The notes beneath the pieces are model-generated. The model saw nothing but the letters and a program-made list of their open reading frames with translations. It was not told where the DNA came from and did no database searches. A program made the translations under genes and the position numbers. From NCBI GenBank assembly GCA_016794625.1, contig JAEUGY010000023.1, forward strand, positions 1-64,000: DNA of 64,000 bases. Direction: 5' to 3'. Source of the DNA: Opitutaceae bacterium. GTDB taxonomy: Bacteria > Verrucomicrobiota > Verrucomicrobiia > Opitutales > Opitutaceae. Positions 27,465 to 45,169 of the stretch are shown piece by piece (position 1 is the first letter of the stretch; every line of letters starts with the position of its first letter).

Positions 27465-29513
27465 TTAACGGCGCCGGGCACCGGGGCGGCGCCCGCTGCC
27501 ACTGCGACGCGATGCCGGTCCGCCTTCGAGGGCGCGAACGGTCTTCCGCTGGTAATCACCGCTGCGAAGGGCATTGATCTGATCGCGCAGCAACGCCGCC
27601 CGCTCAAACTCGAGCCGTCCCGCCGCCTCCGTCATATCGTTCTCGAGTTCAGCAATCACGGCCGCGACATCCTCGCCGGACTCCTCGACGACCGCACCCG
27701 CGTCGGACTCCACTCCCGATCCATCATAGGTGTGCAGGCTCGCCTGGGCAGCACGCTTGACGGAACGGGGGGTGATGCCGTGCAGCGTGTTGTGCTCGAT
27801 CTGCTTCGCGCGACGGTACTGCGTGACTTCGATCGTGCGATTGATGGACGCGGTGCGCTGGTCCGCATAAAAGATCACCCGACCACACTCGTGACGCGCG
27901 GCGCGTCCGGACGTCTGGATCAGGGAAGTTTCACTGCGCAGGAACCCCTCCTTGTCCGCATCGAGAATCGCCACCAGGGCCACCTCCGGCAGGTCGAGGC
28001 CCTCCCGGAGCAGGTTGATGCCCACCAGCACGTCGAAATTGCCAAGCCGGAGGTTGCGCAGGATTTCCACCCGCTCGATCGCGTCAATGTCACTGTGCAG
28101 GTACTCCACCCGGATCTTCGCGTCCCGGAGGAAGGTCGTCAGGTCTTCCGAGAGACGTTTCGTCAGTGTCGTGACCAGCACGCGCTCGCCCGCTCCGACG
28201 GCTTTGCGGATCTCGGCGATCAGGTCCTCCACCTGGCCCTTAGTGGGACGGATCGTGATCTCCGGGTCAAGCAGTCCGGTCGGTCGTATCAACTGTTCTG
28301 CGACCACTGAGGACCATTTCAGCTCGAGGGGCGCAGGCGTGGCCGAAACAAAGAGGGTCTGCCCCGTGATCTGCCGGAATTCCTCGAAACTCTGGGGTCG
28401 GTTTTCGAGGGCCGAGGGCAGTCGAAATCCAAAATCGACCAGCACCTGTTTGCGCGCACGATCGCCATTGAACATGCCGCCGATCTGGGGCAGGGTCGCA
28501 TGGCTTTCATCGATCATGAGAAGGAAGTCCTTCGGGAAGAAATCGATCAGACAAAAGGGCCGGGAGCCCGGACTCCGGCCGGCCAGGTGCATCGAGTAGT
28601 TTTCGATGCCGTTGCAGAAGCCCATTTCTTGGAGCATCTCCAGGTCGTAGTTGGTGCGCATCCGGATCCGTTGCGCCTCGAGGTAAAGCGACTTGGACTC
28701 GAACTGCCCCACCCGCTCGTCGAGCTCCTTCTTGATCGCGGCAATCGCGCCATCGAGCTTTCCCTTGGTGGTGACGTACTGGTTCGCCGGATAAAGATCA
28801 AACTGTTCGAGGGTGCGAAGCACGGCCCCGCTGACCGGATCAAACTCGCTGATGGCCTCGACGTCGTCACCCCAGAGCTCGACCCGCAGCGCCTGCTCGC
28901 TGTACGCCGGCATGATGTCGATCACGTCGCCGCGCACTCGGAACCGGCCGCGCTTCAGCTCATAGTCGTTGCGCTCGTAAAGATTGTCCACCAACCGTTC
29001 CAGCAGCCGGCCGCGTCCCATCGCCTCGCCGCGCCGCAGGGATATCCGCAGATCCTGAAAGTCCTCCGGGGAACCGAGGCCGTAAATGCAGGAGACGCTG
29101 GCGATGACGATGACATCCCGGCGCGACACCAATGAACTGGTCGTCGCGATCCGCAGCCGCTCGATCTCCTCGTTGATCGAGGAGTCCTTTTCGATGTAGG
29201 TGTCGGACGAGGCCACGTAGGCCTCGGGCTGGTAGTAGTCGTAGTAACTGACAAAATATTCGACGGCGTTCTCCGGAAAGAAGTTCTTGAATTCCGAGTA
29301 AAGCTGGGCGGCCAGCGTCTTGTTGTGCGAGATGATGAGGGTCGGGCGATCGCACCGGGCGATCACATTCGCCATGGTGAAGGTCTTGCCGGACCCGGTG
29401 ACGCCGAGAAGCGTCTGATCGCGGTTTCCCTCCTGGATCGAGCGAACCAGGGTCTCGATGGCCTGGGGCTGATCCCCGGTGGGCTCATAGTCGGCGTGCA
29501 GTTTAAAGAGCAT
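27465..29513 (-). CDS. uvrB: Excinuclease ABC subunit B
   Basis: The damage-verifying helicase-like subunit of nucleotide excision repair. The 682-residue protein starts with FKLHADYEPTGDQPQAIETL and carries Walker A GVTGSGKTFTMAN, the beta-hairpin YYDYYQPEAYV, DESHATLPQ, and the C-terminal UVR motif (AELENDMTEAAGRLEFERAALLRDQI), followed by a basic Arg/Gly tail. The frame opens at 29606, but MLFKLHADY at 29513 is the family start. It overlaps the HAD gene's stop by 11 bp. Confidence 0.97.
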   Translation of the reverse strand: MLFKLHADYEPTGDQPQAIETLVRSIQEGNRDQTLLGVTGSGKTFTMANVIARCDRPTLIISHNKTLAAQLYSEFKNFFPENAVEYFVSYYDYYQPEAYVASSDTYIEKDSSINEEIERLRIATTSSLVSRRDVIVIASVSCIYGLGSPEDFQDLRISLRRGEAMGRGRLLERLVDNLYERNDYELKRGRFRVRGDVIDIMPAYSEQALRVELWGDDVEAISEFDPVSGAVLRTLEQFDLYPANQYVTTKGKLDGAIAAIKKELDERVGQFESKSLYLEAQRIRMRTNYDLEMLQEMGFCNGIENYSMHLAGRSPGSRPFCLIDFFPKDFLLMIDESHATLPQIGGMFNGDRARKQVLVDFGFRLPSALENRPQSFEEFRQITGQTLFVSATPAPLELKWSSVVAEQLIRPTGLLDPEITIRPTKGQVEDLIAEIRKAVGAGERVLVTTLTKRLSEDLTTFLRDAKIRVEYLHSDIDAIERVEILRNLRLGNFDVLVGINLLREGLDLPEVALVAILDADKEGFLRSETSLIQTSGRAARHECGRVIFYADQRTASINRTIEVTQYRRAKQIEHNTLHGITPRSVKRAAQASLHTYDGSGVESDAGAVVEESGEDVAAVIAELENDMTEAAGRLEFERAALLRDQINALRSGDYQRKTVRALEGGPASRRSGSGRRPGARRR

Positions 29514-30192
29514 GCGTTGGGGAGGAGGTACCGTCGACCAAGTTGACCAGATCCGCAATGTCGAGCTGGTCGAGACGATCGACAATCCGGTCCGCCCGTC
29601 CGACAAGGTCGGAGCCCGGATGGGTGGTCGCCACGGCCACCGCCTTCATACCGCCGGCCCGCGCCGCCTCCAAACCGACAAAGGCATCTTCGAACACCAC
29701 ACACCGCGCAGGGGACAGGCCGATGACGCGGGCGGCCTTGACGAACACATCCGGGTGCGGCTTTCCTTCGACCACATCCTCGGACGAAACAATGCCTCCG
29801 AACGCGGATTCAAGTCCAAGCCTCGCGAGCACCGCGACGATGTTCAACCGGTGCGACGAGGAGCCGATGCAAGTCCTCACACCCGCGTCCTGCAGGCGGC
29901 GCAGAAACTCCCGGACGCCCGGCAACGCCTCAATTCCGATCTCGGCTACGATCTCCCGGTAGAGCGCCTCCTTGCGCAGCGAAAGGCGGCGGATGTCCTC
30001 CGGATCGCGACTCCACTCCAGCAGGTTGGGAATGATCCATTCGTTCTTTTTCCCGAATCCACGCAGGAAGTGACCGGCCGGGAGCAACTTCCCGATTTCA
30101 TGAGCCAATCGTTCCCAGCTTTGCTCATGATGCCGCGAGGAATCAATGATGACGCCATCCCAATCAAAAATCACTCCATAGCGTGGGTTCAT
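29503..30192 (-). CDS. HAD-superfamily phosphatase (beta-phosphoglucomutase-like)
   Basis: A 229-residue hydrolase with HAD motif I FDWDGVIIDSS, a helical cap (residues about 15-85), motif II IGSSSHR, motif III Lys in EGKPHPDVF, and motif IV FEDAFVGLEAARAGGMK. This is the subgroup I cap-type of beta-phosphoglucomutase/phosphatase. The substrate cannot be read from the sequence. The start MNPRYGVIFDWDG at 30192 is conserved; the open frame upstream to 30951 is the shadow of the ankyrin gene. It is co-transcribed with uvrB. Confidence 0.88.
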   Translation of the reverse strand: MNPRYGVIFDWDGVIIDSSRHHEQSWERLAHEIGKLLPAGHFLRGFGKKNEWIIPNLLEWSRDPEDIRRLSLRKEALYREIVAEIGIEALPGVREFLRRLQDAGVRTCIGSSSHRLNIVAVLARLGLESAFGGIVSSEDVVEGKPHPDVFVKAARVIGLSPARCVVFEDAFVGLEAARAGGMKAVAVATTHPGSDLVGRADRIVDRLDQLDIADLVNLVDGTSSPTHAL

Positions 30193-30315
30193 AGGCAACG
30201 GTGCCCTGCCGGGGGAACAACGCAACCCGAGCGCCGCAGCTCGTCCAAGTCCAATCACGCGGCGGCCTTGGATTTTCGCTGTTGTCGACGCAACCGGGTC
30301 AGATTGAGTGGTGCT

Positions 30316-31323
30316 GTGAAGGACCTCGACGCTTGCTTCCGCGCCTTGCGCGAACCGGGTACGCCCCTGCCCAGCGACCTGTTCACGGCCGACACCCTTT
30401 CGCGCAAGAACGAATCGGGTACCTCGGTGTTGCATGTCGCGGCCAAACACGGCCGATTGCGGGAGTTTCCCGCCGCGGTCGTCACGGAGTCCCGACTGCG
30501 GCAAAAAAACGATGCCGGTTACACGCCCCTGCATCTGGCGGCCCTCTCCGGACACCTGACCCAAGTGCCGGCCGGATTGATCACCGCGGATTCGCTGCGA
30601 GTGCGCAGTAACTCCGGCTTCACCGTCCTGCATTGCGCTGCTTCCGGCGGACATTTGGCCCAACTGCCGGCGGCCCAGCTCACCCCGGAGGCACTGCGCC
30701 TGCGCAACGACCTGGGTGAAACCCTGCTGCACGTGGCGGCCGAGCACGGTACCCTCGATCGTATTCCCCGCTCCCTGCTGACGGTCGAAGCCCTCGCCGA
30801 ACGGACCATCAGTGGCGAAACCGTCTTCCACGTGGCGGCCATGAACGGCAACCTGACCCAAATTCCGGTCGCTTTGACGAGCGACGAAGCGCTGCGAACC
30901 ACGACCTCCGCCGGAGACACGGTATTCCACGCGGCGGCCATTGCCGGACACCTGGGCACACTCCCGCCGGCTTCACTCACCCGCGACCATCTCGCACTTC
31001 GCAGCAAATCGGGATACTCCGTGATCCACGCTGCGGCCGAAACCGGTCAGTTGCAGTTTATCCCTCCCCAACAGCTGACGGCCGACCTCTTGCTGACGAA
31101 AAACGACCATGGAGATACCCCGCTCCATGCCGCGGCGTTTGAAGGTCACTTGGACCAGGTTCCGGCCCAGCTTCTCACACCCGAGTCCATGAATGTGCGC
31201 AACTACGACGGTGCCACGCCCCGCCAAACCGCGATCGACCGCGGCTTCCAGGATCAGTTGCCAGATGAACTGCAGCCCGGCGGCCTGCAACGACTTAAGC
31301 GATTTCTTCGCCTGAAGCGCTAA
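30316..31323 (+). CDS. Ankyrin repeat protein with nine exact 33-residue repeats
   Basis: A 335-residue cytoplasmic protein with no signal peptide. From about residue 22 it consists of nine repeats of exactly 33 residues, pattern 'LTxExLxxRNxxGxTxLHxAAxxGHLxQxPxxL'. The ninth is degenerate (TPRQTAIDRGF), acting as a C-cap, then a basic tail (LQRLKRFLRLKR). This 'PxxLLTxExL' ankyrin variant is seen in Verrucomicrobia (from memory). The likely start is the GTG at 30316; a TTG at 30304 is possible. The long upstream open frame in this phase is antisense to the HAD gene. Probably protein binding; partner unknown. Confidence 0.85.
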   Translation: MKDLDACFRALREPGTPLPSDLFTADTLSRKNESGTSVLHVAAKHGRLREFPAAVVTESRLRQKNDAGYTPLHLAALSGHLTQVPAGLITADSLRVRSNSGFTVLHCAASGGHLAQLPAAQLTPEALRLRNDLGETLLHVAAEHGTLDRIPRSLLTVEALAERTISGETVFHVAAMNGNLTQIPVALTSDEALRTTTSAGDTVFHAAAIAGHLGTLPPASLTRDHLALRSKSGYSVIHAAAETGQLQFIPPQQLTADLLLTKNDHGDTPLHAAAFEGHLDQVPAQLLTPESMNVRNYDGATPRQTAIDRGFQDQLPDELQPGGLQRLKRFLRLKR

Positions 31324-34141: not shown

Positions 34142-35323
34142 TCAGTCGACTCTCACGAGATAGCCCCGCAGGTATTCGCTCTCCGGCATGGTGATCAGGA
34201 CCGGATGGTCGGGAGGCTGATGGGCGAACTCCACCACGCGGACCCTTCGCTTCGCATCCGCCGCCGCATCGGCGAGCACTGACCGGAGGTCCGCATCCTG
34301 CATGTGATGGGAGCACGTGTAGGTGGCCAGAAGGCCACCGGGCGCAAGCCGCTGCATGGCCCGCAGATTGATTTCCTTGTAACCGCGAAGAGCCCCTTCG
34401 AGCGCACTTCGCGATTTGGCGAAGGGCGGTGGATCCAGCACGATCACGTCCCACAGCGGTTCTCCCTCGCGTGCGGGATCATTGAACCAGTCGAAAACGT
34501 TGGCCGTCTCAAAACGAGCCCGCACTCCCGCGCGCTCCGCATTGCGCCGCGCGGCGGATACGGCCTCTTCCGCGCTGTCCAGCCCGAGGACCTCCACCGC
34601 GCCCGCGCGCGCGGCATGCAATGCGAACGCGCCCTGATTGCAGAACGCATCCAGCACCCGACGCCCCTGGCAATGGCGGGCGACCGCGGCGTGCTGCTGC
34701 CGCTGGTCGAGGTAAAACCCCGTCTTTTGTCCGCCCTGCAGATCGAGCCAGTACTCAAAACCGTCCACGACGACCCAGCGGGGGTCCCAGGATCGTCCTG
34801 TCTGGGTGGATACTTCCAGCGGCAGCCCCTCGAGTCTCCGGATGGGGGCGTCGTTGCGAAAGATGATTTCGGCCGGACCAAAGACCGACATCAGCAGCTG
34901 GCCCACCCACGCGCGCCGCTTTTCCAGCGCCAAGGTCTGGATCTGCACCACCAGGGTGTCGCCATACTGATCGACCACGAGTCCCGGAAGGTCGTCCGCT
35001 TCGGACCAGACCAACCGCCGTGTCGTCTTCCAGAAGGGTCCCAGTGCTTCGCGCCGCGCGTGGGCGCGTTCCAGGCAGCCCCGCAGGAACCCCTCATCCA
35101 AGGCCACCCGTTCCCGCGCCAGACGACGCCAAACGATCTGCGAGCGGGAATTGTAGATGCCGCAACCGAGAAACCGTCCGGTGCGGTCGCGACAGTCCAC
35201 CACCTCGCCGTCAAAAGAAGGCGCCAGCAAGGATTCCACCTCGTTCGCAAACACCCAAGGGTGTCCAGTCATGGAACGGGCTCGGACATTGGGCTTCAGC
35301 TTGAGGCAGGCGGCAGGCGACAT
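34142..35323 (-). CDS. rlmI: RlmI-type 23S rRNA cytosine-C5 methyltransferase
   Basis: A class I SAM methyltransferase of 393 residues. An N-terminal PUA-like domain (HPWVFANEVES) precedes an EEHEE-like insert. The catalytic domain holds the SAM motif VLDAFCNQGAFALHAARAGA, DVIVLDPPPFAKS (motif IV) and the catalytic Cys in ATYTCSHHMQDAD. This matches RlmI, which makes m5C1962 in 23S rRNA. The specificity is inferred from family. It heads the rlmI-esterase pair, downstream of two 46-residue membrane protein genes. Confidence 0.85.
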   Translation of the reverse strand: MSPAACLKLKPNVRARSMTGHPWVFANEVESLLAPSFDGEVVDCRDRTGRFLGCGIYNSRSQIVWRRLARERVALDEGFLRGCLERAHARREALGPFWKTTRRLVWSEADDLPGLVVDQYGDTLVVQIQTLALEKRRAWVGQLLMSVFGPAEIIFRNDAPIRRLEGLPLEVSTQTGRSWDPRWVVVDGFEYWLDLQGGQKTGFYLDQRQQHAAVARHCQGRRVLDAFCNQGAFALHAARAGAVEVLGLDSAEEAVSAARRNAERAGVRARFETANVFDWFNDPAREGEPLWDVIVLDPPPFAKSRSALEGALRGYKEINLRAMQRLAPGGLLATYTCSHHMQDADLRSVLADAAADAKRRVRVVEFAHQPPDHPVLITMPESEYLRGYLVRVD

Positions 35324-35428
35324 TCCCTCACCTCAACGTAGCCCTCACAAAGTAAAAGCTCAAAGTGGGTTCCGACCAAAGACTCTCCGGGCGGAACTCC
35401 GCTCTCCCCGACGCGTCAACCGAAGGTG

Positions 35429-35569
35429 TCAGTCCTTGCCCGGACGCGACTTCGACAGGTGATAGCCATCCTTGTCCTGATAACCCGTGGGTGCTTCCCA
35501 CACCGCAGACACGACCACCACCAAACCTGCGCAGGAAATTACGCCAAGAATGACAAGGAGGGTGATCAT
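35429..35569 (-). CDS. 46-residue membrane protein, copy B of a related pair
   Basis: A short gene, ATG at 35569 to TGA at 35429, encoding 46 residues. The N-terminal membrane helix (ITLLVILGVISCAGLVVVV) is followed by a short polar tail APTGYQDKDGYHLSKSRPGKD. The tail shares P-x-G-Y-x-D-x-x-G-[FY]-H with the equally long protein encoded at 35696-35836. A 9-bp inverted repeat lies upstream. I see no clear Shine-Dalgarno. The function is unknown. Evidence of coding is the conserved size and tail motif of the pair. Confidence 0.65.
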   Translation of the reverse strand: MITLLVILGVISCAGLVVVVSAVWEAPTGYQDKDGYHLSKSRPGKD

Positions 35570-35628
35570 AGGGGGTAACGAACCGTGTTGCCGTCTCACG
35601 CCCCTAGCAAGTCCTAATACGCATTTCT

Positions 35629-35651
35629 ACCCATTCCAAACCGGAATGGGT
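35629..35651. repeat. 9-bp perfect inverted repeat between two small membrane protein genes
   Basis: ACCCATTCC (35629-35637), loop AAACC, GGAATGGGT (35643-35651). It lies between the stop of copy A (35696) and the start of copy B (35569). No T-run follows on the minus strand, so it may be an operator or RNA hairpin and not a simple terminator. Confidence 0.45.
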
Positions 35652-35695
35652 TACCTTTTGGAGGAGAAATCGTACTGTCGTTCTAGCCCTGCCGT

Positions 35696-35836
35696 CTATT
35701 CCGCAGCCTTGCGTCCGTAATGAAATCCAGTGGCATCCTCATAACCTTCCGGGATCTTCACGTCATTGAGAGCTTTGATCAGAAAGCCCATGGAGGTGAC
35801 GAAACCGGCGGCAGCGAGGATGTAGACGATAGCCAT
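35696..35836 (-). CDS. 46-residue membrane protein, copy A of a related pair
   Basis: ATG at 35836 to the stop at 35696, 46 residues. A membrane helix (AIVYILAAAGFVTSMGFLI) is followed by the tail KIPEGYEDATGFHYGRKAAE. The tail shares P-x-G-Y-x-D-x-x-G-F-H with copy B, and the two genes are identical in length and orientation. A much longer open frame in this phase (up to 36853) is only the shadow of prfC. Function unknown. A small subunit of a membrane complex is a reasonable guess but unproven. Confidence 0.65.
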   Translation of the reverse strand: MAIVYILAAAGFVTSMGFLIKALNDVKIPEGYEDATGFHYGRKAAE

Positions 35837-36037
35837 GACGTTGTAGGAAAGGTGTCGGCACGGCTCTGAAGAAACTTTTGGCGGTTTCGTGCAAATGAGG
35901 GATTCACCTCTCACTCCTGGGGGTTCGCCTGACGGGAAACGGGGAAAGGTTGAGCGAAAACACGTCGACCCTGCGCTCGGCGCGCCCACTTTGCGCTTTC
36001 CCCCGGGAGCCTCGGCCCCTTCCCTTCGCCCTTGCCT

Positions 36038-37687
36038 ATGTCTCCTGCCGCCGAAATTGCCCGCCGCCGTACCTTCGCGATCATTTCGCACCCCGATGCC
36101 GGCAAGACCACGCTGACGGAGAAATTCCTCCTTTACGGCAATGCCATCCACCTCGCGGGCACGGTCACCGCACGCAAGAACCAGCGGGCCACGGCGTCGG
36201 ATTGGATGGAGCTGGAGAAGCAACGTGGGATCTCGATCAGTTCCACGGTGCTTCAGTTCGACTACCGGGGGTTTGCCGTCAACCTCCTCGACACACCGGG
36301 TCACAAGGACTTCTCCGAAGATACCTACCGGGTCCTCACCGCTGTGGATGCCGCGCTGATGGTGATCGATGCCGGCAAGGGCGTGCAGGCGCAAACCCGC
36401 AAACTGTTCGAGGTCTGCCGCCGGCGGGGAGTTCCGATCTTTACCTTTATGAACAAGTGCGATCGGCCCACGCTGAACCCGATCGCTCTGATCGACGAGT
36501 TGGAGCATGTGCTGGGACTGCAGGCCAGTCCGGTCATCTGGCCCCTTGGCAACGGCCCATCGTTCCGCGGTGTCTTTGATCGGCGCTCCCGTGAAGTACA
36601 CCTGTTCGAACGCGTGCCCGGGGGTGCCTACCAGGCTCCGGTCAATGTCACGTCGCTGGAGGACGAGGCGGTACGAGCAAAACTCGACGACTACACCTAC
36701 GGTGAAGTGACGGAACAATTGGAGATGCTGGACGGAGCGGGCCATCCCTTCGATTTGGCGGCGGTGCAGGCCGGCCGGCAGACGCCGGTCTTTTTTGGCA
36801 GCGCCGTGAATAACTTCGGCATCCAGCTGCTCCTCGACGGTTTCCTGCAGCACTCCGTTCCTCCGGCTCCGCGCAAAATCTCGGTGCCGGTCACGGCTGA
36901 CACACCGCGCCTAGCTCACGGCGACGTAGCCACATCGTTCGTCCCCGTAACCCATCCCAAGTTTTCCGGTTTCGTGTTTAAGATTCAGGCCAACATGGAC
37001 CCGAAGCATCGCGATCGTATCGCCTTCCTTCGGGTGTGCTCGGGCAAATTCAGCCGCGACATGACCGTGCTCCACCAGCGCACCGGCAAGACCGTCCGGC
37101 TCTCATCCTCGCACAAACTCTTTGGGCAGGAACGCGAAACCGTCGATGAAGCATGGCCCGGTGATGTGATCGGACTCGTGGGGCACGACTCGTTCGGCAT
37201 CGGGGACACCCTGACGGAGGACCGGGGAATTGTGTTTGACGAAATCCCCCGGTTTCCCCCCGAAGTTTTCACCTACATCTCAAATCCCAACCCCTCGGAT
37301 TCAAAGAAGTTCCGCGCCGGCTTGGATCAGCTCCTGCAGGAAGGGGTGGTGCAGTCGTTTACCGCCCGCCACGCCCCGCCGGGAGCCACCTTGCTGGCGG
37401 CGGTCGGTCCGCTGCAGTTTGAAGTGGTGCAATACCGTCTGCAGTCAGAATACGGCGCCGAGTCCCGCTTGGAAGCATGCCCGTGGACTCTGCTGAAGTG
37501 GCTTGAACCTCACCCCAGCCTGAAGAATACCCAGCTGCTCGTGGTCGCAACGGGCGTGAGTTTCGGCACGGACAAGTTCGACCAGCCGGTGGCCTTGTTT
37601 CCAAACGATTGGACGATGCGCTATTTCCTCGAAAAGAATCCGGAGCTCAAGCTGCACGATCTTCCCCTCGAGCAAACTCGCCTTTAG
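36038..37687 (+). CDS. prfC: Peptide chain release factor 3
   Basis: A GTPase that removes RF1/RF2 from the ribosome after termination. The 549-residue protein shows G1 SHPDAGKTTLTEKFLLYG, the switch region RGISISSTVLQFDY, G3 LLDTPGHKDFSEDTYR, G4 FMNKCDRP, and domain II/III text ending LKWLEPHPSLKNTQLL. A TTG at 36032 precedes the ATG used here. It is followed 26 bp later by the D,D-carboxypeptidase gene. The 201-bp gap before it, up to copy A, shows no recognised site. Confidence 0.95.
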   Translation: MSPAAEIARRRTFAIISHPDAGKTTLTEKFLLYGNAIHLAGTVTARKNQRATASDWMELEKQRGISISSTVLQFDYRGFAVNLLDTPGHKDFSEDTYRVLTAVDAALMVIDAGKGVQAQTRKLFEVCRRRGVPIFTFMNKCDRPTLNPIALIDELEHVLGLQASPVIWPLGNGPSFRGVFDRRSREVHLFERVPGGAYQAPVNVTSLEDEAVRAKLDDYTYGEVTEQLEMLDGAGHPFDLAAVQAGRQTPVFFGSAVNNFGIQLLLDGFLQHSVPPAPRKISVPVTADTPRLAHGDVATSFVPVTHPKFSGFVFKIQANMDPKHRDRIAFLRVCSGKFSRDMTVLHQRTGKTVRLSSSHKLFGQERETVDEAWPGDVIGLVGHDSFGIGDTLTEDRGIVFDEIPRFPPEVFTYISNPNPSDSKKFRAGLDQLLQEGVVQSFTARHAPPGATLLAAVGPLQFEVVQYRLQSEYGAESRLEACPWTLLKWLEPHPSLKNTQLLVVATGVSFGTDKFDQPVALFPNDWTMRYFLEKNPELKLHDLPLEQTRL

Positions 37688-37713
37688 GTTTCCGCCCGAG
37701 AACCGCCTCACGC

Positions 37714-38715
37714 ATGATCGCTCGACGCCTGTTTGCCGCCGCCCTCTTGCTGGCCGTCCCGTTGTCCTGGGTTCAAGGGGCGTCGAAGGCTGCGCCCGCG
37801 CCTTACCGGAGCGCGCTGGTGATGGACGCCGCCTCCGGCAAGATTCTATTCGAGGACAAGGCGGACGCGCCGCGAGCGCCGGCCAGCGTGACCAAATTGA
37901 TGACCTTTCTGCTGGTGCACGATCAGATGGTCGCGGGCGCGCTCAAACTTTCCACGACGATTCAAATCACCAGGGCCGACGCAGCCGTCGGTGGCAGCCA
38001 AGTCTGGCTGGCGGAAGGGGAAACGTTTTCTGTCGAGGAACTTCTCTACGCCTTGATGATCCAGTCCGCCAACGATGCAGCGCACGCGCTCGCGCGGGCC
38101 AGCCATGGCTCGAAAGAGGCGTTTGTCGTTAAGATGAATGAACGGGCGAAAGCCCTGGGTATGACTCAGACCACGTTCCGCACGCCGCACGGACTGCCTC
38201 CCACCAATCGTAAACTGCTCGACGGTGACGTCACCACCGCGCGCGACCTCTCCCTGCTTTGCCGCGAACTGGTCTTGAAGACCAACCTGCTCACCTTCAC
38301 GTCGGTCAAGGAACGGGTGTTCCGACCCGGCCAGCCAGCGCCCAAGGAGGTGATCATGCGCAACCATAATCACCTCGTGGGAAAAGTGCGCGGTGTGGAT
38401 GGGCTCAAAACGGGCTACACGGCGCTGGCCGGTTACTGCCTCGCCGCCACGGCCGAGCGCGAAAACCGCCGCGTCATCGTGATTCTTCTCGGCGGGCCGG
38501 ACGTGACGACCCGGGACGTCAAGGTGGCCGAGTTGATCGAAACCGGATTCACGCTCGCACCGCCGGCGTCAGGCTTTGTGACCACTCCGCCAAGCCCGTT
38601 TGTGGGCACCACCGGACCAGTCACGACCCCGCAACCCACGCCCTCGCGACCCGCGGTCGCCCCGACCCGACCGGATGCTCCCCCGACGGTACGATTCCCA
38701 CCCCCCAAGCCCTGA
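37714..38715 (+). CDS. dacA: D-alanyl-D-alanine carboxypeptidase (PBP5/6 type)
   Basis: Trims the terminal D-Ala from peptidoglycan pentapeptides in the periplasm. A 333-residue protein with a signal peptide ([18 protein letters not shown]), S-x-x-K as SVTK (58-61), S-x-N as SAN (118-120) and KTG (232-234). After the catalytic domain the usual C-terminal beta domain and membrane-binding helix are replaced by a Pro/Thr-rich tail ([21 protein letters not shown]), so anchoring differs from E. coli PBP5. The frame opens earlier inside prfC, but the signal peptide fixes the ATG at 37714. The gene symbol is by family, not orthology. Confidence 0.9.
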
Positions 38716-38726
38716 ATTTGTCTCGC

Positions 38727-39647
38727 ATGGCCCCCGACCTTCCTGCTGTTGAAACGTACCTTCGTGGACTGCAAGATCGCATCTGCCTCGCATTGGAGGC
38801 GGAGGAAACGGGCGCCCGGTTCAAGGAAGACGCCTGGAAACGGCCCGAGGGAGGAGGCGGAAGAACCCGCCTTCTGGCCGACGGTGCGGTGTTTGAAAAG
38901 GCCGGGGTTGCCTTTTCGCACGTGAGCGGGACCCAGCTCCCTCCGTCTGCCACGGCCCACCGCCCCGAGCTCGCCGGAAAACCGTGGCAGGCTCTGGGCG
39001 TGTCCCTGGTCATCCACCCGCGAAATCCGTTCGTCCCCACCAGTCACGCCAATGTGCGCTTTTTCCTCGCCGATGCGGAGGGTCCCCATCCCGCCTGGTG
39101 GTTCGGAGGCGGATTTGATCTCACCCCCTACTACGGGTTCGACGAGGATGTGGTTCATTGGCATCGCACGGCACGCTCCGCCGTACAGGCCGTCGCACCG
39201 GAGCTCTATCCGCGGATGAAGAAAGCCTGCGACGACTACTTTTACCTCAAGCACCGCAAAGAACCCCGGGGCGTGGGCGGCCTGTTTTTTGACGATCTCA
39301 ATGAACTGGGATTCGAACGTTCCTTCGCGCTCATGCGCCGGGTGGGTGATGCGTACCTCGAGGCTTACCAGCCGATCGTGGCCCGCCGCAAGGACCTGCC
39401 GTTCACCGACCGCGAGCGACAATTTCAGCTGTATCGCCGTGGCCGTTACGTCGAATTCAACCTCGTCTGGGACCGCGGCACGCTCTTCGGCCTCCAGAGC
39501 AACGGGCGCACGGAATCGATCCTGATGAGTCTGCCGCCCCTCGTGCGCTGGGACTACGCCTGGACGCCCGAACCGGGCAGCCCGGAGGCCCGGCTCCATG
39601 ACCACTTCCTCCAGCCACGCGATTGGACCGAGCTCGGCTCGTCCTGA
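38727..39647 (+). CDS. hemF: Oxygen-dependent coproporphyrinogen III oxidase
   Basis: Decarboxylates coproporphyrinogen III to protoporphyrinogen IX using O2. The 306-residue enzyme shows the family text [56 protein letters not shown] and [18 protein letters not shown]. The start is the ATG at 38727; a TTG at 38718 is nearer the preceding stop. It leads hemF-hemE-hemG, with hemE 13 bp on. Its presence points to aerobic heme synthesis. Confidence 0.95.
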
Positions 39648-39660
39648 CCTCTGAACACCC

Positions 39661-40692
39661 ATGAATTCACGCGAACGCTTCCTTGCCGCCGCCTCCTGCC
39701 AGCCTCTTGAACGCCCCCCGATCTGGGTCATGCGTCAGGCCGGCCGCTACCTGCCGGAATACCGGGAACTGAAGTCGCGCTCTTCATTTCTGGAGATGGT
39801 GAAGACACCGGAACTGGCGGCCGAGGTCACCCTCCAGCCGCTCCGGCGCTTTCCCGGAATCGATGCGGCCATTCTGTTTTCCGACATCCTAGTCATTCCG
39901 GAAGCACTGGGTCAGCCGTACCATTTTCGCGATACCGGCGGCATCGCCATGCAGTACCGGATTGAGACACGCCAGCAGGTCGACCAGTTGATTGCGCCTG
40001 AAGAGGTGCCCGGTCGGCTGAACTACGTCGCAGAAACGCTGACTCGACTCCGCAAGGAGCTCGGAGGCCAGCGGGCCTTGCTCGGGTTTGGCGGTTCGCC
40101 GTGGACGCTCGCCACCTACATGGTGGAAGGCGGCAGCTCTGAGGAATTCGAGCGCATCAAACTGCTCTTCTACACCGACCGGGCCTTGTTCGACGCGCTG
40201 CTGGAAAAACTCACCGCCGCACTCATCGCTTATTTCAAAATGCAGATCGCCGCGGGCGCAGACGCCATTCAGATCTTCGATTCCTGGGGTGGCATCATCG
40301 CCGGTTGCGACTACGAGGCCGCGTCGCTGCGCTGGATCCGGGAGATCATTTCCCAGCTCCCCGCCGACTTCCCCATCATCCTTTACGCCAAAGGAACCGG
40401 CTCCCACCTGATCGACCAGACGTTTTGCGGCGCTCGCGTGTTGAGCATCGATTGGTCCGTCGACCTGCGCGCGGCACGCGCCCTGGTGCCAAAAACCATT
40501 GCGCTCCAAGGCAATCTCGACCCGCTCTTGATGCAGACGACCCCGACGATTGTGGCCCAGGAATCGACACGGCTTCTCGAGTCCATCCGAGGACAATCAG
40601 GCCACATCTTCAACCTGGGACATGGAATCACGCCTCAGGCGAAGATTGAATGCATGCAAACCCTCATTGATACCGTAACCCGCTGGCGATAA
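39661..40692 (+). CDS. hemE: Uroporphyrinogen decarboxylase
   Basis: Removes the four acetate carboxyls of uroporphyrinogen III. The 343-residue TIM barrel shows ERPPIWVMRQAGRYLPEYRE (active-site Arg region), ILFSDILVIPEALG (catalytic Asp), and GFGGSPWTLATYMVEGG. It is placed 13 bp after hemF. The gap to hemG (72 bp) contains a palindromic site. Confidence 0.97.
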   Translation: MNSRERFLAAASCQPLERPPIWVMRQAGRYLPEYRELKSRSSFLEMVKTPELAAEVTLQPLRRFPGIDAAILFSDILVIPEALGQPYHFRDTGGIAMQYRIETRQQVDQLIAPEEVPGRLNYVAETLTRLRKELGGQRALLGFGGSPWTLATYMVEGGSSEEFERIKLLFYTDRALFDALLEKLTAALIAYFKMQIAAGADAIQIFDSWGGIIAGCDYEAASLRWIREIISQLPADFPIILYAKGTGSHLIDQTFCGARVLSIDWSVDLRAARALVPKTIALQGNLDPLLMQTTPTIVAQESTRLLESIRGQSGHIFNLGHGITPQAKIECMQTLIDTVTRWR

Positions 40693-40735
40693 ATCGACCA
40701 AATTGGCACGAAAGAGGCCAAGAAATGACCAGACG

Positions 40736-40770
40736 TGACACTGTAAATAACGTAGTGTCATTCCGTGACA
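40736..40770 (+). promoter_or_regulatory. Palindromic operator-like site at the hemG start
   Basis: TGACACT (40736-40742), an 11-bp spacer and AGTGTCA (40754-40760) form one inverted repeat. The second arm then forms TGTCA-ttccg-TGACA (40756-40770), which overlaps the GTG start of hemG at 40765. There are thus three TGACA/TGTCA half-sites in 35 bp. This looks like a regulator-binding site or an mRNA hairpin that could control hemG translation. No regulator gene is adjacent. Confidence 0.45.
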
Positions 40771-42162
40771 TCGGACGCATCCCACCTCCTCCCCATCGCC
40801 GTGATCGGCGGTGGCGTCACTGGCCTCTCCACCGCCTTCGCTCTCGCCCGCTCGGGACGCCGAGTACGGCTGTTTGAAGCATCGGATCGGCTGGGAGGTG
40901 CCGTGCAATCGGAGACCATCGAGGGTGGATGGCTGGCCGAAGCAGGTCCGAACACGCTCTTGCTCAGTGACCCGAAGGTCCGGACCCTCTTCGACGATCT
41001 GGGTTTGGCCTCGGAGTTGCGCACCGCGCGACCCGAAGCGAAGCATCGCTACCTCGTTCGCAACGGAAAACTCTGGGCGCTCCCCACGTCGCCGGGATCG
41101 TTTTTGTCCACCGGGCTCTTTTCCGCGCGAGCCAAGTTCGGAATCGTTGCCGAACTCCTCAAGCGACCGCGGACGCGCACCACCGACCTCAGCCTCGCCG
41201 CGTTGATTGAATCCCATTTTGGGCGCGAGATTGTGGACTATGCGCTCCAACCGTTTGTGAGCGGGGTATTTGCCGGCAATCCGGCAAAGCTCTCCGCCAA
41301 ACATTCGTTTCCTCAGCTCTGGGAAGCGGAACAGCAGCACGGGTCCCTCATCCGCGGACAGATCGCCAGTGCGAAGGCGCGCAAAGCCCGCGGCGAACCG
41401 CGTGGCACGATCGTGTCCTTTCCCGATGGTCTCGCCACCATCCCGCGCCGCTTGGCGGACCGACTGCCCGCCGGGACCATTGAATGCCGTGCCAAGATCG
41501 AATCACTGCTCACGGATGGCGCCTGGAAACTGGTCTGGAGCAGGGATGGCACCACGACGACGGAATCGTTCGCCGCGGTGATCACGACGGTGCCGGCACA
41601 CGCGCTGGCACGCCTGTCGGTCGGCCCCTTGGGAGAGCGCCCCTTGGCTGCTTTGGACGCGATCGAATATCCTCCGGTGGCGTCACTCTTCCTCGGCTAC
41701 CGACGCGATCAGGTGGCTCATCCACTGGACGGATTTGGGCTTCTCATTCCCGCGTTGGAGCGCCGCGCTTTGCTCGGGGTGCTGTTTTCGTCCAGTCTCT
41801 TCGCCGGACGCGCCCCGGATGGCCATGTCGCCATCACCGTCATGATGGGAGGAGCTTCATCCCCTGATCGCGCCCAGCTCGACACGACCGCAGCGCTCGA
41901 GCTGGCGAAACGCGAACTGGCCTCCTTGCTCGGAGTCACGGGCGAACCTTCGATCGTGAGACACCATCGCTGGCCGCGAGCGATTCCTCAGTATAACCTC
42001 GGTTATGAGCGATTCCTCGACGCCATCGCTCGTACGGAAGCCAACCATCCGGGATTGTTCGTGGGAGGTCACATCCGGGATGGCATTTCGCTGAGTCAGT
42101 GCCTTACCTCCGGCATGCGCCTCGCGGAGCGTGCCTCGAACCACGCCCTTCGCGCTTCCTGA
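40765..42162 (+). CDS. hemG: Protoporphyrinogen oxidase (HemY type)
   Basis: Oxidises protoporphyrinogen IX with O2 using FAD. The 465-residue flavoprotein has an N-terminal dinucleotide motif (IAVIGGGVTGLSTAFAL), RLGGAVQSETIEGGWLAEAGPNTLLLSD, and a C-terminal GHIRDGISLSQCLTSGMR for FAD binding. It starts at GTG 40765; no ATG is available before the FAD fold. A palindromic site overlaps the start. It is the third heme gene after hemF and hemE. Confidence 0.92.
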   Translation: MTSDASHLLPIAVIGGGVTGLSTAFALARSGRRVRLFEASDRLGGAVQSETIEGGWLAEAGPNTLLLSDPKVRTLFDDLGLASELRTARPEAKHRYLVRNGKLWALPTSPGSFLSTGLFSARAKFGIVAELLKRPRTRTTDLSLAALIESHFGREIVDYALQPFVSGVFAGNPAKLSAKHSFPQLWEAEQQHGSLIRGQIASAKARKARGEPRGTIVSFPDGLATIPRRLADRLPAGTIECRAKIESLLTDGAWKLVWSRDGTTTTESFAAVITTVPAHALARLSVGPLGERPLAALDAIEYPPVASLFLGYRRDQVAHPLDGFGLLIPALERRALLGVLFSSSLFAGRAPDGHVAITVMMGGASSPDRAQLDTTAALELAKRELASLLGVTGEPSIVRHHRWPRAIPQYNLGYERFLDAIARTEANHPGLFVGGHIRDGISLSQCLTSGMRLAERASNHALRAS

Positions 42163-42199
42163 CGCCAGGGCAGTCGAATTGCACTTAGGTCCATGGGGC

Positions 42200-42215
42200 G
42201 CCAGATATGTCTGGC
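42200..42215. terminator. Short hairpin between hemG and ileS
   Basis: GCCAGA (42200-42205), loop TATG, TCTGGC (42210-42215), 38 bp after the hemG stop. There is no T-run, so it is a weak terminator candidate. It is followed by TTGACT (42222-42227) and, 16 bp on, TACCCT (42244-42249), a possible promoter for ileS. An AGGAGG at 42228-42233 is 35 bp before the ATG, too far to be its ribosome-binding site. Confidence 0.25.
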
Positions 42216-42268
42216 CCTGCCTTGACTAGGAGGACTGGCAACATACCCTCTGCCGCCTTTTCTTTGGC

Positions 42269-45169
42269 ATGGCGCAAGACCTTAAGGACACTCTGCTACT
42301 CCCCAAAACCGATTTCCCCATGCGGGCGAATCTCGTGCAGCGAGAGCCCGCCCGGCTCGCTCATTGGGAGTCCAACCACCTCTACCGTGCCATCCAAAAT
42401 CGGCGGGAGGGTCGTCCCGCGTTTGTGCTGCATGATGGGCCTCCCTTCACCAATGGGGACGTGCACATCGGCACTGCACTCAACAAGAGCCTCAAGGATA
42501 TCACGCTTCGCTACAAATCGATGCGAGGGTTTCGGACGCCCTATGTTCCGGGCTGGGACTGTCACGGATTGCCCATTGAGCAGAAGGTCGCGCGGGAGTT
42601 GCAGTCGAAGAAGGAAACGGTGTCGGTTTCCGAGCTAAGGGCCCGTTGCGACCGTTTTTCGGAATCTTGGATCGCCCTGCAGAAGAAACAATTCAAGCGG
42701 CTGGGCGTATTGGCGGACTGGGAAAACGAGTACAAAACCAAGTCTCCCGCCTTTGAAGCGGACATTGTTCGCACCTTTGCCACATTCGTGGAAAAGAACC
42801 TGGTCTACCGGAGCAAAAAGCCGGTCTATTGGTCGATCCCGTTCGAGACTGCGCTCGCCGAGGCGGAAATTGAGTACCGCGACCACGTTTCGCCATCGAT
42901 CTGGGTGCGTTTTGTCGTGACCCCGGAAGCGGCCGCCCCCTTTGGCCTGGCAACGGACAAACCGCTTTCCGTGGTGATCTGGACGACGACACCCTGGACG
43001 ATTCCAGCCAACCTTGCCGTCGCCGTGCACCCTGAAGTGGACTACGTGGTGGCGGACATCGGTCCTGAACGCATCATTGTCGCCGAAGCACTGCTGCCGT
43101 CGGTCACCACCGCGGCGAAGGTCGAAGGCGCGGTTACCATCGTAGAGCGGCGACCAGGGCGGACGCTGGAGCATCTCGCAACCCGGCATCCCTTCATTCT
43201 CCGATCCTCACCCGTGGTGCTCGCGGACTATGTCACTACGGACAGCGGAACCGGAGCTGTACATACGGCGCCGGGACACGGCGCCGAGGACTACGTTACG
43301 GGCCTCAAGTACGGCCTACCGATTTACTGCCCTGTGGGTGATGACGGACGCTATGTGGCGGATGATCAGCTGCCGGGTGATCTGGTTGGGTTGACGACCT
43401 TGGAAAGCACGGAGGACCTCGAAGCCAAACGGACCTCCCCCGCCAATATCGCCGTGCTCAAGAAGCTGGGCGAAGCCGGGGCTTTGCTCGCCAAGCAACG
43501 CTACACCCACAGCTATCCGCACTGCTGGCGTTCGAAAACTCCCATTATCTTTCGGGCCGTGGACCAATGGTTTGTCAGCCTCGACGGTGCACCCGGCACC
43601 GCGGGAACGACCCCCACTCCCCGCCAAACCGCGTCCCAGGCAATCGGATCCGTCACGTGGGTGCCGGCGTGGGGCGAAAACCGAATCCGCGGAGCCGTCG
43701 AAGCTCGTCCGGATTGGTGTATCAGTCGGCAACGTTCCTGGGGAGTGCCGATCGTGGCCTTTTACGATGCGTCCAGGAAGCCATACCTAGACGCGGGTGT
43801 GGTGCGGAGCGTTGCGGCCAAGATCGCCTCCCAGGGTTCCAACATCTGGTACGACCTGACGGCGAAGGAAATTCTGAGTGGCATTCCCCTTCCCGCCGGA
43901 TGGCCGGCCGGAGAGGATCTGACCTGCGGTCGCGATACGTTGGACGTTTGGCTCGATTCCGGCTCCTCGCATGCCGCCGTGCTCGCGCACGGTCAGGGTG
44001 GAACCCATTGGCCCGCCGACCTCTACATGGAGGGCAGCGATCAACACCGCGGGTGGTTCCAGTCCTCGCTATGGACTGCGGTGATCGCCCGCGGATCCGC
44101 CCCCTACAAGGCCGTGCTGACCCACGGGTTCATCGTGGGAGAGGATGGCAAGAAAATCTCAAAGTCGGGTCAGTACGAAAAGCCGCCCACCTCGGACAAT
44201 TACATCGCACAATACGGCGCCGATGTCATCCGGCTGTGGATCGCCTCACAGAATTTTACGGAAGACATCACCCTCTCGGACAAGATTCTGAACAACGCGG
44301 CGGAAGCGTACCGTTTGTTCCGCAACACCTTCCGCTACCAGCTTTCCACGCTCTTCGACTTTGATCAGTCGCAGCATGCGGTCCCGCTCGAAGCTCTCGA
44401 TACGTTGGACCGTTGGGCGTTGCACCAGACGGCAACGCTAGTGAAGGAATGCGAAGCCGCCTACGACGCGTACGAGTTCCATCGCGTGAACCAACTCTGC
44501 AATCAGTTCTGTGCGGTCACGCTTTCGGCGGTCTACCACGATGTCCTGAAGGATCGGCTTTACACGCTCCGATCGGATCATCCTCTCCGCCGGTCGTCCC
44601 AGACAGCCATTCACCATGTGTTTCAGACATTGGTGCGACTGCTGGCACCGATCTTGACGCTCACGACGGACGAAGCGTGGTGTCACGCCACCTTCAAGTC
44701 TGATTTTCCGGACCCGGCGCGCTCCAAAGGCGACCAGGCCCACCTCGCTTCGGTGCATCTGCAGGACTGGCCGGAGGTCGACTCCAAATGGCTCCAACCC
44801 GAAGTGGAAGGCGATGTCGCTGCGCTGCTCGATGTGCGTCGGCGCGTCAATGAGGCGATCGAACCGCTGCGCGCGGCGGGCAAGCTGGGCAAGTCCCTGG
44901 ATGCAGCTGTGACTCTCGTTGTATCCGACGCTGGACTGCGCCGCGTGCTGGAGAAACACCGCGACTTCCTCCCGGAGTTGTTCATTGTTTCTCACGTGGA
45001 CGTGGCCGCCGGCCCATCCACCGCACCCGACGCGTCACCGGTTTCCGTCACGGTCCGGCATGCTCAGGAACTGGGTTATGTCCGCTGTCCGCGATGCTGG
45101 CGCTGGGTTCCAGCCCTTCAATCCACCGCTCACGGCGATGTCTGCGCACGTTGCGCCGACGCACTCTAG
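42269..45169 (+). CDS. ileS: Isoleucyl-tRNA synthetase
   Basis: Charges tRNA-Ile; class I synthetase of 966 residues with an editing (CP1) domain. Seen: the HIGH-type DGPPFTNGDVHIGTALNK, GWDCHGLPIE, editing-domain text VVIWTTTPWTIPANLA, the KMSKS-type loop KKISKSGQYEKPP, and a C-terminal zinc knuckle (CPRCWRW...CARC) retained in full. The conserved start MAQDLKDTLLLPKTDFPMR fixes 42269. The gene is followed 26 bp later by the DksA-like gene. Confidence 0.97.
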   Translation: MAQDLKDTLLLPKTDFPMRANLVQREPARLAHWESNHLYRAIQNRREGRPAFVLHDGPPFTNGDVHIGTALNKSLKDITLRYKSMRGFRTPYVPGWDCHGLPIEQKVARELQSKKETVSVSELRARCDRFSESWIALQKKQFKRLGVLADWENEYKTKSPAFEADIVRTFATFVEKNLVYRSKKPVYWSIPFETALAEAEIEYRDHVSPSIWVRFVVTPEAAAPFGLATDKPLSVVIWTTTPWTIPANLAVAVHPEVDYVVADIGPERIIVAEALLPSVTTAAKVEGAVTIVERRPGRTLEHLATRHPFILRSSPVVLADYVTTDSGTGAVHTAPGHGAEDYVTGLKYGLPIYCPVGDDGRYVADDQLPGDLVGLTTLESTEDLEAKRTSPANIAVLKKLGEAGALLAKQRYTHSYPHCWRSKTPIIFRAVDQWFVSLDGAPGTAGTTPTPRQTASQAIGSVTWVPAWGENRIRGAVEARPDWCISRQRSWGVPIVAFYDASRKPYLDAGVVRSVAAKIASQGSNIWYDLTAKEILSGIPLPAGWPAGEDLTCGRDTLDVWLDSGSSHAAVLAHGQGGTHWPADLYMEGSDQHRGWFQSSLWTAVIARGSAPYKAVLTHGFIVGEDGKKISKSGQYEKPPTSDNYIAQYGADVIRLWIASQNFTEDITLSDKILNNAAEAYRLFRNTFRYQLSTLFDFDQSQHAVPLEALDTLDRWALHQTATLVKECEAAYDAYEFHRVNQLCNQFCAVTLSAVYHDVLKDRLYTLRSDHPLRRSSQTAIHHVFQTLVRLLAPILTLTTDEAWCHATFKSDFPDPARSKGDQAHLASVHLQDWPEVDSKWLQPEVEGDVAALLDVRRRVNEAIEPLRAAGKLGKSLDAAVTLVVSDAGLRRVLEKHRDFLPELFIVSHVDVAAGPSTAPDASPVSVTVRHAQELGYVRCPRCWRWVPALQSTAHGDVCARCADAL

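Follow-up and report, generated by a model that had tools for sequence, protein, structure and literature searches.

The window, a stretch of 64,000 nucleotides from an Opitutaceae bacterium (GCA_016794625.1; contig JAEUGY010000023.1, positions 1 to 64,000), contains two short ORFs, here called sORF1 and sORF2. They lie between an rlmI-like gene, downstream of sORF1, and prfC, divergent from sORF2. Two genes of 46 codons on the same strand, each with a membrane helix followed by a polar tail, had been expected from a first reading of this DNA, and both were found on the minus strand. The products start with a hydrophobic helix at the N-terminus and continue with the polar tail. The features of the locus are the following, with the neighboring genes named by reading their sequences and not from a family search:

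34142..35323, minus strand: rlmI-like SAM methyltransferase gene, downstream of sORF1 (named by sequence reading)
35429..35569, minus strand: sORF1, 46 codons, translation MITLLVILGVISCAGLVVVVSAVWEAPTGYQDKDGYHLSKSRPGKD; TM helix at about residues 2-25 and predicted beta-hairpin tail APTGYQDKDGYH
35608..35634, minus strand: conserved element, candidate promoter or operator, about 40-65 bases before the sORF1 ATG, ATGGGTAgaaATGCGTAtTAG..ACTTG
35696..35836, minus strand: sORF2, 46 codons, translation MAIVYILAAAGFVTSMGFLIKALNDVKIPEGYEDATGFHYGRKAAE; TM helix at about residues 2-26 and predicted beta-hairpin tail PEGYEDATGFHYG
35866..35910, minus strand: block of about 45 bases, candidate promoter or leader, upstream of sORF2, GAGGTGAATCCCTCATTTGC..GAAA.CG.CAAAAGTTTCTTCAG
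36038..37687, plus strand: prfC (release factor 3), divergent from sORF2 (named by sequence reading)

The two tails pair without gaps (PTGYQDKDGYH in sORF1, PEGYEDATGFH in sORF2), and both carry the motif P-x-G-Y-x-D-x-x-G-[FY]-H. Their alignment scores 43 by Smith-Waterman, where shuffled sequences average 16.5 and only 4 of 20,000 shuffles do as well, so the likeness is not due to chance, as the original prediction held. One gene was also said to be masked by a shadow frame of prfC. This is true of sORF2, which forms the 3' end of a 385-aa frame running antisense into prfC.

Both ORFs recur in tandem with no internal stop in the congener G001 (C508:5720-6092). In sORF2, the comparison of G000 with G001 gives 25.3 synonymous differences in 32.2 sites and 10.8 nonsynonymous differences in 105.8 sites (pS 0.785, pN 0.102). 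Both shifted same-strand frames contain stops and have the pS/pN pattern reversed; the antisense frame is open, yet its pattern is reversed as well. The other gene, sORF1, is common to all seven congeneric species examined, with no internal stops and with pN/pS from 0.07 to 0.53 in all pairs, while sORF2 is found among them only in G000 and G001. Between these two genomes, pairwise alignment shows 74-75% identity inside the ORFs versus 60-71% in the surrounding intergenic DNA. Since pN/pS is low in the window genes, sORF1 and sORF2 are real protein-coding genes under purifying selection. The suggestion of a duplicated and diverged pair holds in part: one small membrane protein is present in two copies that have diverged, but a direct tandem duplication is not shown, as sORF2 has this narrower distribution and the tree of 48 columns neither recovered nor rejected the window pair as sisters (AU p 0.26). 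A third copy in the same genome is located on C48, near ECF-sigma-like and FecR-like genes.

Homologs with the tail motif, predicted for relatives, are present in the genus, the family, the phylum and further out. With a profile built from 12 members, about 50 of 150 genomes in the bacterial family proved to have relatives (E up to 0.001), often several in each. The DNA pattern AP.GY[QE]D..G[FY]H, searched over 84,980 prokaryote species, returned 107 stretches; a hand calculation that assumes equal base frequencies puts the number due to chance at about 1. By record title, almost all are from Verrucomicrobiota (Opitutaceae, Pelagicoccus, Limisphaera/Pedosphaera, Chthoniobacterales and others), and six loci are from Ignavibacteriota (L066, L083, L094, L115, L121, L135). 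The remaining titles are two Sphingomonas, one Chloroflexi, one Patescibacteria, one Armatimonadetes and two Acidobacteria bins. In bins titled Acidobacteria and Verrucomicrobia, the proteins L078 and L129 are identical and L090 and L117 differ by one residue, which suggests that the Acidobacteria contigs were misbinned. The family is carried by 17 of 77 genomes related to one Ignavibacteriota member and by 19 of 77 around one Limisphaerales member. A strongly hydrophobic segment, not demanded by the pattern, precedes the motif in 147 of the 155 motif ORFs in the loci examined for it, with redundant copies counted in.

Viral contigs of IMG/VR contain 39 stretches with the same DNA pattern, and a looser pattern gives 52. 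These are nearly always short ORFs (mostly 40-60 codons) encoding a hydrophobic helix and the tail, on contigs of 33-63% GC. They are placed inside tight, mostly same-strand clusters of small ORFs, and we regard the carriers as phages because DnaB-like helicase, primase, DNA methyltransferase, repressor and terminase genes are found nearby; no obvious lysis genes were seen beside these copies. A ribosome-binding sequence (AGGA/GGAG/GAGG) occurs before the ATG in 19 of 34 phage members, whereas ATGs taken at random from these loci have one in 8% of cases. In one phage subgroup, pS is 0.13-0.94 versus pN of 0.01-0.19. One Sphingomonas member comes from strain Leaf10, the only one of 100 related genomes to carry it, and the gene is also on the IMG/VR contig L295; the copy is thus phage-borne and the profile specific. 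Cultured phages (INPHARED) and PLSDB plasmids gave no match by tblastn, a weak search for so short a query. The window copies are chromosomal, while the members on viral contigs are phage-encoded. The family is therefore far larger than the local pair and includes phage members.

None of 60 members matches Pfam or NCBIfam at E 0.01, and scans with single proteins found no family either. In PHROGs, no family covers the motif; among the 60 members two families were matched by one member each (E 0.002), and one member has a weak match to phrog_14464 'membrane protein' (E 0.006) over the helix part only. The PDB search by sequence returned nothing but a weak antibody-loop match, and Foldseek and VIA-align gave no significant match. 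The top viral structure in BFVD (A0A6J5MJB3; 36% identity over 36 columns, E 0.51, not significant) is an uncharacterized 45-aa protein of an uncultured Caudovirales phage, possibly an unnamed family member. We found no description of the family in the open-access literature. Considering these searches, sORF1 and sORF2 belong to a family of about 40-60 residues from Verrucomicrobiota, Ignavibacteriota and many environmental phages that is undescribed in Pfam, NCBIfam, PHROGs, PDB and open-access papers.

The family consensus is A-P-[ELV]-G-Y-[EQ]-D-E-x-G-F-H-[YF]-G-[KR]-P, several letters of which were fixed by the scan pattern itself; the independent signs are the helix ahead, the E at P+6 (69%), the G at P+12 (64%) and the profile matches. 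In bacteria and phages alike, conservation is far higher in the tail than in the anchor. AF2 predicts for sORF2 a helix at residues 2-26 and strands at 32-34 and 37-39 (mean pLDDT 83.8, from 70 aligned sequences), and for sORF1 a helix at 2-25 and strands at 29-32 and 35-38 (mean pLDDT 88.1, from 62 sequences). The tail is thus predicted to form a beta-hairpin, a prediction resting partly on the same alignment that shows the tail conservation, and its invariant D and G agree with a type I turn that has a G bulge. A cytoplasmic position of the tail is probable, since the first six residues seldom contain K or R (mean 0.08), which are commoner both in the four residues preceding the motif (mean 0.57) and in the tail. 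The topology may not be uniform across members, because only 43% of them have K or R immediately ahead of the motif. A cleaved signal peptide was considered and rejected by reasoning, as the N-terminus is not positive and a Pro follows the Ala at the would-be cleavage point.

Some members have no TM helix, both in chromosomes (for example L198, L203, L265, L270, L354, L355, L357 and L358) and in phages (L314 and L329). By helical moment, the amphipathic helix is clear in L265, L314 and L329, while most helices of TM-less members are not above shuffles. TM and TM-less members occur together in the Limisphaerales genomes G697, G702, G879, G882, G883, G894, G902 and G944. Since TM-less members exist, and stand beside TM forms in several genomes, the predicted hairpin and not the anchor is the constant part of the family. 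The Limisphaerales pairing gives the impression that these genomes require a soluble isoform as well as a membrane one.

Chromosomal copies (about 100 loci) are mostly stand-alone, in lineage-specific slots whose genes are likewise named by reading their sequences. The usual one in Opitutaceae is prfC/rlmI, where both genes also adjoin the homologs of several other genera; in Pelagicoccus and related Opitutales it is next to hemF or a response regulator, in Limisphaerales next to aroF, and in G024 between mraZ and rsmH. This last member (G024:C77, L217, at about 1157) stands at the head of a division and cell-wall cluster. Tandem pairs were found in the rlmI/prfC slot of G000, G001, G123, G158 and G024, and at other places in G008 (C1), G005 (C39) and G007 (C47). 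Across these loci the neighbors vary, with no fixed partner gene or linked complex genes, and the partner cannot be named from context because the recurring neighbors are lineage-specific.

Upstream of sORF1, the TGCGTA element is found in all 7 congeneric species, and in five congeners it is a direct repeat with a 10-base period (TGCGTAATTCTGCGTAATAGACTTG). It resembles an operator that a response-regulator-type activator would bind, or else a promoter of an unusual kind. The block upstream of sORF2 (35866..35910) is nearly identical between G000 and G001 in pairwise alignment, and the flanking DNA is not. An Rfam search over 34900-36300 gave no match, this block included. The scan for sigma-70 promoters and terminators returned no promoter and one terminator-like stem, with no excess over shuffles. 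A 9-bp stem (ACCCATTCCAAACCGGAATGGGT) was observed between the ORFs at 35629-35651, with a T run following it on the plus strand.

Our preferred explanation, to which we give a probability of about 0.42, is that a cytoplasmic hairpin, tethered to the membrane, docks onto a partner that is widely conserved, and that phages borrow this hairpin to act on the host early. The anchor would be replaceable, usually one TM helix and sometimes a short non-TM helix, while the constant cytoplasmic beta-hairpin AP-x-GY-[EQ]-D-E-x-G-FH-[YF]-G would act as the docking ligand and, on the inner side of the membrane, recruit or modulate a conserved partner in bacteria. In Verrucomicrobiota and Ignavibacteriota, stand-alone copies may serve as regulators or adaptors, and phages would carry their copy early against the same partner. 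A ligand is suggested because the tail is constant across phyla and phages while the anchor changes freely; as no partner was found, the docking is what we infer. The presence of the tail in Verrucomicrobiota, Ignavibacteriota and many phages suggests that it plugs into something common in bacteria. Phages seldom keep so constant a motif without an effect on the host, so the tail could be a ready bait for a conserved membrane-associated target.

A stronger form of this explanation, which we consider doubtful, has a natural chignolin-like hairpin, brought to the inner side of the membrane by interchangeable anchors, binding one universally conserved bacterial target, with membrane and soluble isoforms acting as regulators in Verrucomicrobiota and Ignavibacteriota and unrelated environmental phages seizing the target early in infection. 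Chignolin (GYDPETGTWG) is an artificial, designed beta-hairpin of 10 residues. The tail core GYEDETGFH shares with it the GY, the acidic turn, the ETG and an aromatic residue in the second strand, besides the hairpin predicted by AF2; no homology is implied. The chignolin sequence is present in PMC6435801 and PMC9410030.

The small size and single TM helix also recall known accessory proteins of membrane complexes. KdpF, CydX, AcrZ and MgtS are single-pass membrane regulators of 30-60 aa, easily overlooked in annotation, and each pairs with one transporter or oxidase. If the family were an accessory subunit of one such complex, as CydX, KdpF and AcrZ are, its TM helix would pack on a large membrane protein and the tail would lock it, which fits the stand-alone genes and the conserved juxtamembrane AP that opens the tail. 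We consider this unlikely: it is the tail that stays constant, whereas TM sequences vary, members without TM occur beside TM members in the same genome, and linked complex genes are absent in about 100 loci. Compared with those regulators, the family also differs by its strictly conserved (predicted) hairpin tail, its phage members and the absence of a fixed partner gene and of any Pfam or NCBIfam match.

It is likewise improbable that the family is a phage-derived factor for superinfection exclusion or host takeover, of which bacterial copies would be domesticated protective remnants. The 39 viral contigs with the motif, the Sphingomonas member and the repeated tandem and dispersed paralogs of host genomes are in line with such an origin, and phage morons (in PHROGs, 'moron, auxiliary metabolic gene and host takeover') are also small TM proteins of phage accessory clusters. 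In contrast to them, our motif is outside every PHROG and the close relatives are stable chromosomal genes of Verrucomicrobiota. The prfC/rlmI slot is shared by copies in several Opitutaceae genera and the genes are under purifying selection, so the copies look inherited and cellular, and the chromosomal copies examined are outside recognizable prophages.

Type I toxin-like hydrophobic peptides of the Hok, Ldr or TisB kind, multi-copy and controlled by antisense RNA, share the length, the single TM helix and the multi-copy tandem occurrence, but we hold this explanation to be very improbable, since here the conserved part is the polar tail and not the TM helix, TM-less members exist and no Rfam match lies near the window copies. 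Short ORFs are common in a GC-rich genome, but a chance likeness of two spurious ORFs is already refuted by the shuffle test, by selection and by the large family recovered in an independent DNA scan.

Returning to the proposed docking hairpin, its significance is that Pfam, NCBIfam and PHROGs lack a family found in two bacterial phyla and in many environmental phages; the shortness of its members, about 45 residues, is the probable reason. The interchangeable anchors are a natural experiment that separates the tether from the ligand, and the Opitutaceae of the window, with tandem copies by prfC and rlmI, are a suitable test ground.

In the remaining surroundings of the window, the region 36038-45169 contains co-directional genes for prfC, D-alanyl-D-alanine carboxypeptidase, hemF, hemE, protoporphyrinogen oxidase and ileS, and the order from prfC to ileS is mostly kept in congeners. 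A candidate frame with ankyrin-like repeats on the plus strand (30200-31323) overlaps another candidate frame on the minus strand (29503-30951) that has an HAD-phosphatase-like gene.
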